Source: an uncultured Bacteroidales bacterium (lineage in GTDB: Bacteria; Bacteroidota; Bacteroidia; Bacteroidales; UBA932). Taken from it: 64,000 nt of DNA. Positions 10,858 to 11,433 of the stretch are shown piece by piece (within the stretch, counting starts at the first letter, position 1; each line of letters opens with the position of its first letter). The stretch is from contig CAJONC010000003.1 of the NCBI GenBank assembly GCA_905235675.1, forward strand, positions 1-64,000, given 5' to 3'. The translations under genes and the position numbers were made by a program. A model generated the notes under the pieces. That model ran no database searches. It saw only the letters and a list, made by a program, of their open reading frames with translations, and had not been told where the DNA came from.

Positions 10858-10993
10858 CATGAGCAAGAACACAGCAAAAGGCCAACCACAGAGCACTCTC
10901 CAGGAGGGCCAGAGCGGTTCTACGGATGATGTCAACGTTCTTAGCGCACATATTGAGGAGTTGGAGGAGCAGCTCCGGCATGAAAAGATGCGG
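10858..10993 (+). pseudogene. Possible remnant of an IS3-type transposase OrfA coiled coil
   Basis: A short frame starting MSKNTAKGQPQS contains 'IEELEEQLRHEKMR', which resembles the C-terminal leucine-zipper of Bacteroidetes IS3-family OrfA proteins. It then loses sense. Neither a DDE domain nor terminal inverted repeats were found nearby. The rest of the gap 10782-11135 holds nothing else recognisable, apart from a minus-strand open stretch described in the findings. The call is weak. Confidence 0.25.
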
Positions 10994-11135
10994 GTATTCT
11001 GCCTGAATAGACCATGGACAATTTGCAGGATGGAGAAATCCAGCGCCTCAGCCACATCTGCATATTCATCCACGTATGAACCTAGAATCTTGTAGCGGCC
11101 TTCGTTGATATAATACTCATTATAAGGGATTTCCG

Positions 11136-11422
11136 CTGTAGGTCCTCCTTGAAACGCAAGGACCTACAGCACTTTTCTGGGTTTTCTGCTATAGGTCTCC
11201 CTTGAAATGCAAGGACCTACAGCACTTTTCTGGGTTTTCTGCTGTAGGTCCTCCTTGAAACGCAGGGACCTATTGCGTTTTTCTGGGATATCTGCTCTAG
11301 GTCTCCCTTGAAATGCAAGGACCTACAGCACTTTTCTGGGTTTTCTGCTATAGGCCCCCCTTGAAACGCAGGGACCTACAGCACTTTTCTGGGTTTTCTG
11401 CTATAGGTCTCCCTTGAAATGC
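11136..11422. repeat. 53-bp tandem repeat, five full copies plus a partial sixth, each a hairpin
   Basis: Copies begin at 11136, 11189, 11242, 11295, 11348 and 11401, an exact 53-base period; the sixth breaks off near 11422. Each unit is CTGTAGGTCC, a 14-base middle, GGACCTACAG, then the 19-base linker CACTTTTCTGGGTTTTCTG. The middle itself holds CCTTG/CAAGG, so each unit can fold into a roughly 13-bp stem with a three-base bulge. Linker and arms are both conserved, so this is a tandem repeat and not a CRISPR array. Confidence 0.9.
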
Positions 11423-11433
11423 ATAGCCGGCGC

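Follow-up and report, generated by a model that had tools for sequence, protein, structure and literature searches.

A 53-base tandem hairpin array of a Cryptobacteroides genome very probably belongs to a REP/REPIN-type family with its own RAYT

The window is a 64,000-nucleotide stretch of contig C3 in a Cryptobacteroides metagenome-assembled genome of 2.2 Mb (G000). It carries a tandem array of a 53-base unit, with rplS and then a tRNA-Arg gene as neighbours. A GC-rich segment adjoins the array. The stretch at 10860-11120, which separates the array from a SusC/TonB-type gene, is non-coding and looks like broken reading-frame remnants, transposase-like by eye. The features are collected in Table 1.

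Table 1. Features of the array and its surroundings in the window
Feature	Position	Strand	Details
Composite segment	11097..11511	+	29 bp left, array and 88 bp GC-rich right; BLAST; second copy on contig C7 (L009 4694-5260)
Tandem array	11126..11423	+	period 53, 5.6 units; TRF, unit extraction, column composition
Unit 1	11135..11187	+	stem 12/13 pairs
Unit 2	11188..11240	+	stem 9/13 pairs
Unit 3	11241..11293	+	diverged linker TTGCGTTTTTCTGGG
Unit 4	11294..11346	+	stem 9/13 pairs
Unit 5	11347..11399	+	stem 10/13 pairs
Partial unit 6	11400..11423	+	terminates within spacer (...TTGAAATGCA)
GC-rich segment	11424..11640	+	two copies of 31-mer GTGAGCGGATAAGGGGGCNGCGCCCCCTCAA; adjoins array

The array is highly regular. 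TRF reports it with a score of 442 and zero indels, and its identity is 85% at lag 53; apart from lag 106, no other lag exceeds 36%. The first-pass annotation, made from the sequence alone, had placed it at 11136-11422 with the same copy number, a strict 53-base spacing and point changes only between the copies, and all of this holds. Folded as RNA, both strands lie far from their shuffles, with z scores of -5.8 and -8.0.

Each unit follows one plan of an arm GCTGTAGGTCC, a 14-nt spacer of the CCCTTGAAACGCAG type, a second arm GGACCTACRGC and a 17-nt loop ACTTTTCTGGGWTTTCY. The tandem layout lets a hairpin form with the spacer at its tip or with the loop there. Two earlier descriptions need trimming. 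A linker CACTTTTCTGGG, called fixed, is found in four of the five full units and is replaced in unit 3, and the long palindrome ascribed to every unit is near-perfect in unit 1 but reduced to 9–10 of 13 pairs in the others.

The last copy was also said to be cut off by a GC-rich repeat. This is right, and the array and the GC-rich segment together make one composite that recurs on contig C7, where the GC-rich part is 98% identical over 88 bp. The GC-rich segment is probably an element separate from the array. Its 31-mer contains GGGGGCNGCGCCCCC and occurs a third time after the C7 array. We considered the GC-rich repeat as a second REP family and set it aside, as it has just three copies, two in the window and one on C7.

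The composite spans about 0.4 kb in the window, and its C7 copy abuts a GH43 gene (L009 5260-6078). This gene begins at position 33 of the 288 in its family profile, so that about 32 start positions are gone exactly where the composite ends. Probably, a rearrangement brought in this copy and removed the start of the gene.

The first-pass annotation proposed to seek the 53-base unit across the genome and its relatives, and the search found 11 arrays of 2 to 8 units each in the host genome, a count that comes from such searches rather than from a full repeat census. They lie on contigs C1 (two), C3 (the window), C7, C11, C14 (two), C16, C21, C23 and C32 and total about 55–60 units. Allowing up to three mismatches, a 29-base pattern for the unit junction has 52 matches in this genome, all inside the 11 arrays, and none of these junctions is a solitary unit. 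The reversed pattern, used as a control, has 0 matches.

The step between units is exactly 53 in 45 of the 47 cases, with one of 44 and one of 54, and the mean difference between units is 9.6 of the 53 positions. The arrays are extragenic, the only overlap with an ORF of at least 100 aa being 10 bp at C7, in a doubtful frame. Four of them have tRNA genes within about 0.5 kb and others lie just past stop codons. Neighbouring genes vary from array to array, with SusC-like, rplS, GH43 and RAYT ORFs next to the arrays of the window, C7 and C14.

Outside the host genome, we found no real copy of the unit in 60 other genomes, 36 of them congeners. A single DNA match in one of these (G036) lies inside a coding sequence and was rejected as chance. 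The rplS–tRNA-Arg locus is conserved in congeners and the window array is absent at all 24 loci compared, a few of them shortened by contig ends. The rplS search in the nearest relative, G069, found nothing, hence this genome gave no empty-site comparison. The arrays are thus species-specific and missing at the orthologous places, and therefore they move or turn over, movement being read here from presence and absence between species.

A search of the host genome for Y1 transposases gave two weak matches. On contig C14, a RAYT-like gene (674-1561, 295 aa) sits between two arrays, 42 bp from C14a and 130 bp from C14b, and the two arrays share the orientation of the gene. Chance would place about 0.004 arrays so near one given gene, by our estimate for a 2.2 Mb genome with 11 arrays.

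The only sensible family matches of the C14 protein are NCBIfam REP_Tyr_transpos (NF047646; 24.3 bits, E 2e-5) and the IS200-like Pfam Y1_Tnp (17.8 bits), both below the curated cut-offs of 80 and 23 bits, respectively. Its HUH motif is NHFH and its tyrosine motif YVLRNP has the form Y---NP. Residues N55, H56, H58, Y113 and N117 are invariant in an alignment of 49 RAYT relatives, and K/Q/R residues of the C-terminal part are nearly so.

The fold was compared on a homologue, L066, about 49% identical to the C14 protein, rather than on the C14 protein itself. The AlphaFold model of L066 has a pLDDT of 94, and its sole PDB match at E≤0.001 is 4er8_A (E 3.6e-4), followed by IS200/IS608/ISDra2 transposases. 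4ER8 is the complex of a RAYT with a REP hairpin. A phmmer search of the C14 protein against PDB sequences gave nothing useful.

Relatives of the C14 gene occur in 87 of the 101 sampled Cryptobacteroides genomes. The RAYT reading frames of L033 and L062 (G069), L063, L036 and L044 contain one stop codon, which suggests decay in some lineages.

The host RAYT and six relatives (L062–L067) make one clade with support of 100/98. All seven members have near-flank repeats at a pitch of 52–53 with differing unit sequences, weakly in one. Among the six relatives, whose RAYTs are 47–74% identical, the step near the gene is 52 in every case, seen as an array or as a lag-52 signal; that of L064 is weak and degenerate (67–70% over 60 nt). 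Their units keep the same plan of arm, tip, arm and tip in other letters, with arm pairs such as GGACCTTCC/GGAAGGTCC in L066 and ACCTGG/CCAGGT in L063. The flanking arrays of L063 run in the same direction, as those at C14 do.

The 52–53 step appears also at L085, L094 and L125, elsewhere in the RAYT tree. Near flanks account for 8 matches at lag 52 and a further two at 103–104, far flanks for one. What is preserved in these comparisons seems to be the 52–53-base spacing and not the letters. Beside the related RAYTs L099, L114, L091 and L128, a step of 73 bases recurs.

Arrays are dispersed also in genomes G125 and G069. G125, the genome of L094, has several dispersed 53-bp arrays with a step of 53 at all listed junctions. 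Its arms GGACCTCCGAC/GTCGGAGGTCC differ from the host ones by changes on both sides that keep the pairing, and its loop is near-identical (ACTTTTCCCGCATTTCC versus ACTTTTCTGGGATTTCC in the host). Between its arrays, the inverted-repeat core is 81% identical and the 14-nt spacer 39%, the latter being 84% identical within arrays.

Spacers so variable at a constant 14 nt imply that their letters are renewed in each array with the length held. This point stands mainly on G125, the host spacers being more alike (80% identity within arrays and 76% between). A separate tandem array of period 72 with 6 copies lies near a 53-bp array in G125 (L147 1743-2171).

That a spacer of variable sequence keeps its length suggests that the unit is measured, either by the enzyme or by the helical phase, 52–53 bp being five turns of DNA. 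The lags measured next to RAYT genes tend to fall close to a whole number of helical turns (Rayleigh p 0.007–0.014 with unique lags and a turn fixed at 10.4–10.6), in a post hoc test on a small and partly related set that is only suggestive. The pitch may be set by either the helical phase or the reach of the enzyme.

We conclude that the window array is very probably one locus of a non-autonomous family of REP/REPIN type that takes the form of tandem arrays and depends on its own RAYT for its spread. By analogy with studied RAYTs, the C14 enzyme would recognize, nick and mobilize the arrays. The inverted arms would fold while the strand is single-stranded, as on the lagging-strand template or in repair. 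The HUH/Tyr enzyme would then recognize the hairpin and a foot, GTAG in the host and NNAG more generally, nick beside the hairpin and transfer or re-prime the strand. Copies may be seeded between genes in this way and then grow head to tail at the fixed unit of 52–53 nt.

The foot has its own record. GTAG is present in most of the 49 host units (columns 4–7), within the stem, and relatives have GCAG, GAAG or GGAG. The units of the host, G069, G123 and G125 share an AG at the foot with GTC after it. RAYTs nick single-stranded DNA beside a hairpin in vitro, with the site selected by the foot (PMC8266576). The recurring AG would fit a role of the last two foot bases.

Counted against spread by the RAYT are the scores below the cut-offs, the same-direction flanking arrays, the low copy number and a structure taken from a homologue. 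Of the three functions offered by the first-pass annotation, a protein-binding array comes nearest, in that the arrays belong with a RAYT; the binding itself would follow by analogy. The RAYT family binds such hairpins as single-stranded DNA.

More tentatively, this Bacteroidota RAYT clade with its C-terminal DNA-binding extension might maintain the arrays at a five-turn pitch, with letters and spacer replaced and length held. The enzyme or a partner would then copy or amplify a measured unit of 52–53 nt, for example by a nick at a set distance with rolling-circle synthesis or re-replication. Alternatively, it would bind the array as a helically phased polymer.

A structural array without mobility is the strongest rival to spread by the RAYT, although we hold it rather unlikely. 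A protein would bind the units as double-stranded DNA, the 52–53 bp step aligning all its sites along one side of the helix. The protein could be the helix-turn-helix-like C-terminal part of the RAYT, a nucleoid protein or gyrase, and the RAYT would be a domesticated partner and not a mover. A step held at about five turns while the sequences are unrelated, the near-invariant C-terminal residues and the lags near whole turns all suit it. Against it, arrays that are species-specific and missing at orthologous places must move or turn over, and the arms are inverted repeats, as needed for single-strand hairpin recognition. The lag test carries its post hoc nature here too.

An RNA element is improbable. 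The arrays would be transcribed as terminators, mRNA stabilizers or tandem RNAs of a sponge or antitoxin-like (ToxI-like) kind, for which the strong folding of both strands and the places near tRNA genes or just after stop codons speak. A source of structured RNA had been suggested before, and of that suggestion the folding stands. However, Rfam gave only tRNA and no family for the array, and we see no sign of an RNA product. The G-U mismatch bias is slight and contradictory between strands (hairpin 1: plus 40 versus minus 21 of 539 cells), genuine double changes are rare, and the shared neighbour is a DNA-nicking enzyme and not a nuclease toxin. Antitoxin RNAs of the ToxI type have a gene for a ToxN-family nuclease directly downstream. 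The arrays may have a secondary RNA role.

Still less probable is an ordinary minisatellite grown by replication slippage that lies beside a RAYT by chance. Copies are more alike within arrays than between them, and the tandem growth itself may use slippage or unequal recombination. But one unit makes 11 dispersed extragenic arrays, two of which directly flank the sole RAYT of that type against the small chance expectation, the association with RAYTs is repeated in the rest of the clade, and the spacer keeps its length despite differing sequence. The slippage-prone minisatellite of the first-pass annotation thus falls short, with the pitch kept across sequences.

A CRISPR-like or other defence array has a negligible chance, as its palindromic repeats and regular spacing come with 'spacers' of 14 nt that are repeated within the array, as opposed to unique ones of at least 25 nt, and with neighbours that differ at every array. 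Of 2.9 million viral contigs searched, none matched an 18-base core pattern.

Earlier work has described RAYTs, REPs and tandem clusters of REPINs beside RAYTs (PMC2817692, PMC3116915, PMC3733652, PMC6006769). The RAYT-spread family proposed here resembles the REP/BIME elements and REPtrons of E. coli, Stenotrophomonas and Pseudomonas (PMC2817692, PMC8266576) in its extragenic palindromes at many places, a single-copy HUH/Tyr1 gene between repeat copies, and a repeat type of its own for each RAYT with codivergence. The GTAG at the foot of most host units may be a further likeness. REPs are imperfect palindromes of 20–65 nt, extragenic and dispersed, and the hairpins of 36–39 nt in 11 extragenic arrays agree with this. 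REPs are often present in more than 100 copies, whereas we count 52 junctions.

Unlike REPtrons, which have two inverted REPs, the C14 gene has direct tandem arrays on both flanks and no inverted pair. Its RAYT is longer with a C-terminal extension, the loci are few and without singletons, the pitch is fixed at 52–53 bp, and the foot of the relatives is not GTAG.

In Pseudomonas fluorescens SBW25, inverted REP pairs with flanking sequence are reiterated in tandem, with one cluster beside each RAYT, and the host arrays are similar to these clusters (PMC3116915). The SBW25 REPINs are mostly single, and their clusters have at most 4 REPINs with steps of 71, 110 and 184 bp (PMC3116915). Here, by contrast, the units occur in arrays alone, with a step of 52–53 bp in several species with unrelated sequences.

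Among the described TnpA-Y1 (TIRYT) classes, subclass 2.1 has long proteins with an HTH-like C-terminal extension, as here, but that study found no REP-like repeats near its genes, unlike here (PMC3733652, PMC6006769). Subclass 2.6, mostly of Bacteroidetes, has genes flanked by 'atypical secondary structures' copied elsewhere in the genome, as here (PMC3733652, PMC6006769). Its median length is 179 aa, in contrast to about 290 aa with the motif Y(V/I)xRNP in our proteins, and both subclasses were compared by description and not by profiles.

Our literature search found no paper on REP arrays in Cryptobacteroides. What is new is a pitch fixed at 52–53 bp, close to five turns of DNA, where the sequences themselves are unrelated. 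Also new are flanking arrays in direct orientation on either side, a population made up of arrays alone, and a Bacteroidota RAYT clade extended at the C-terminus.

How REPs multiply and form arrays has been an open question since RAYTs were first described. An array-only family with a candidate cognate enzyme, independent sequence solutions in several species and the unit length as the sole constant makes the mechanism testable. The RAYT–REP systems are also extended to Cryptobacteroides, an abundant uncultured gut genus.

The host genome has a second RAYT-like gene of 311 aa on contig C31 (10477-11690; L030 1205-2415). Two direct copies of another hairpin, 83 nt long, flank it; more copies lie on C6, C8, C13 and C31, in no tandem array form. 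This gene and its hairpin are a separate RAYT–repeat pair.
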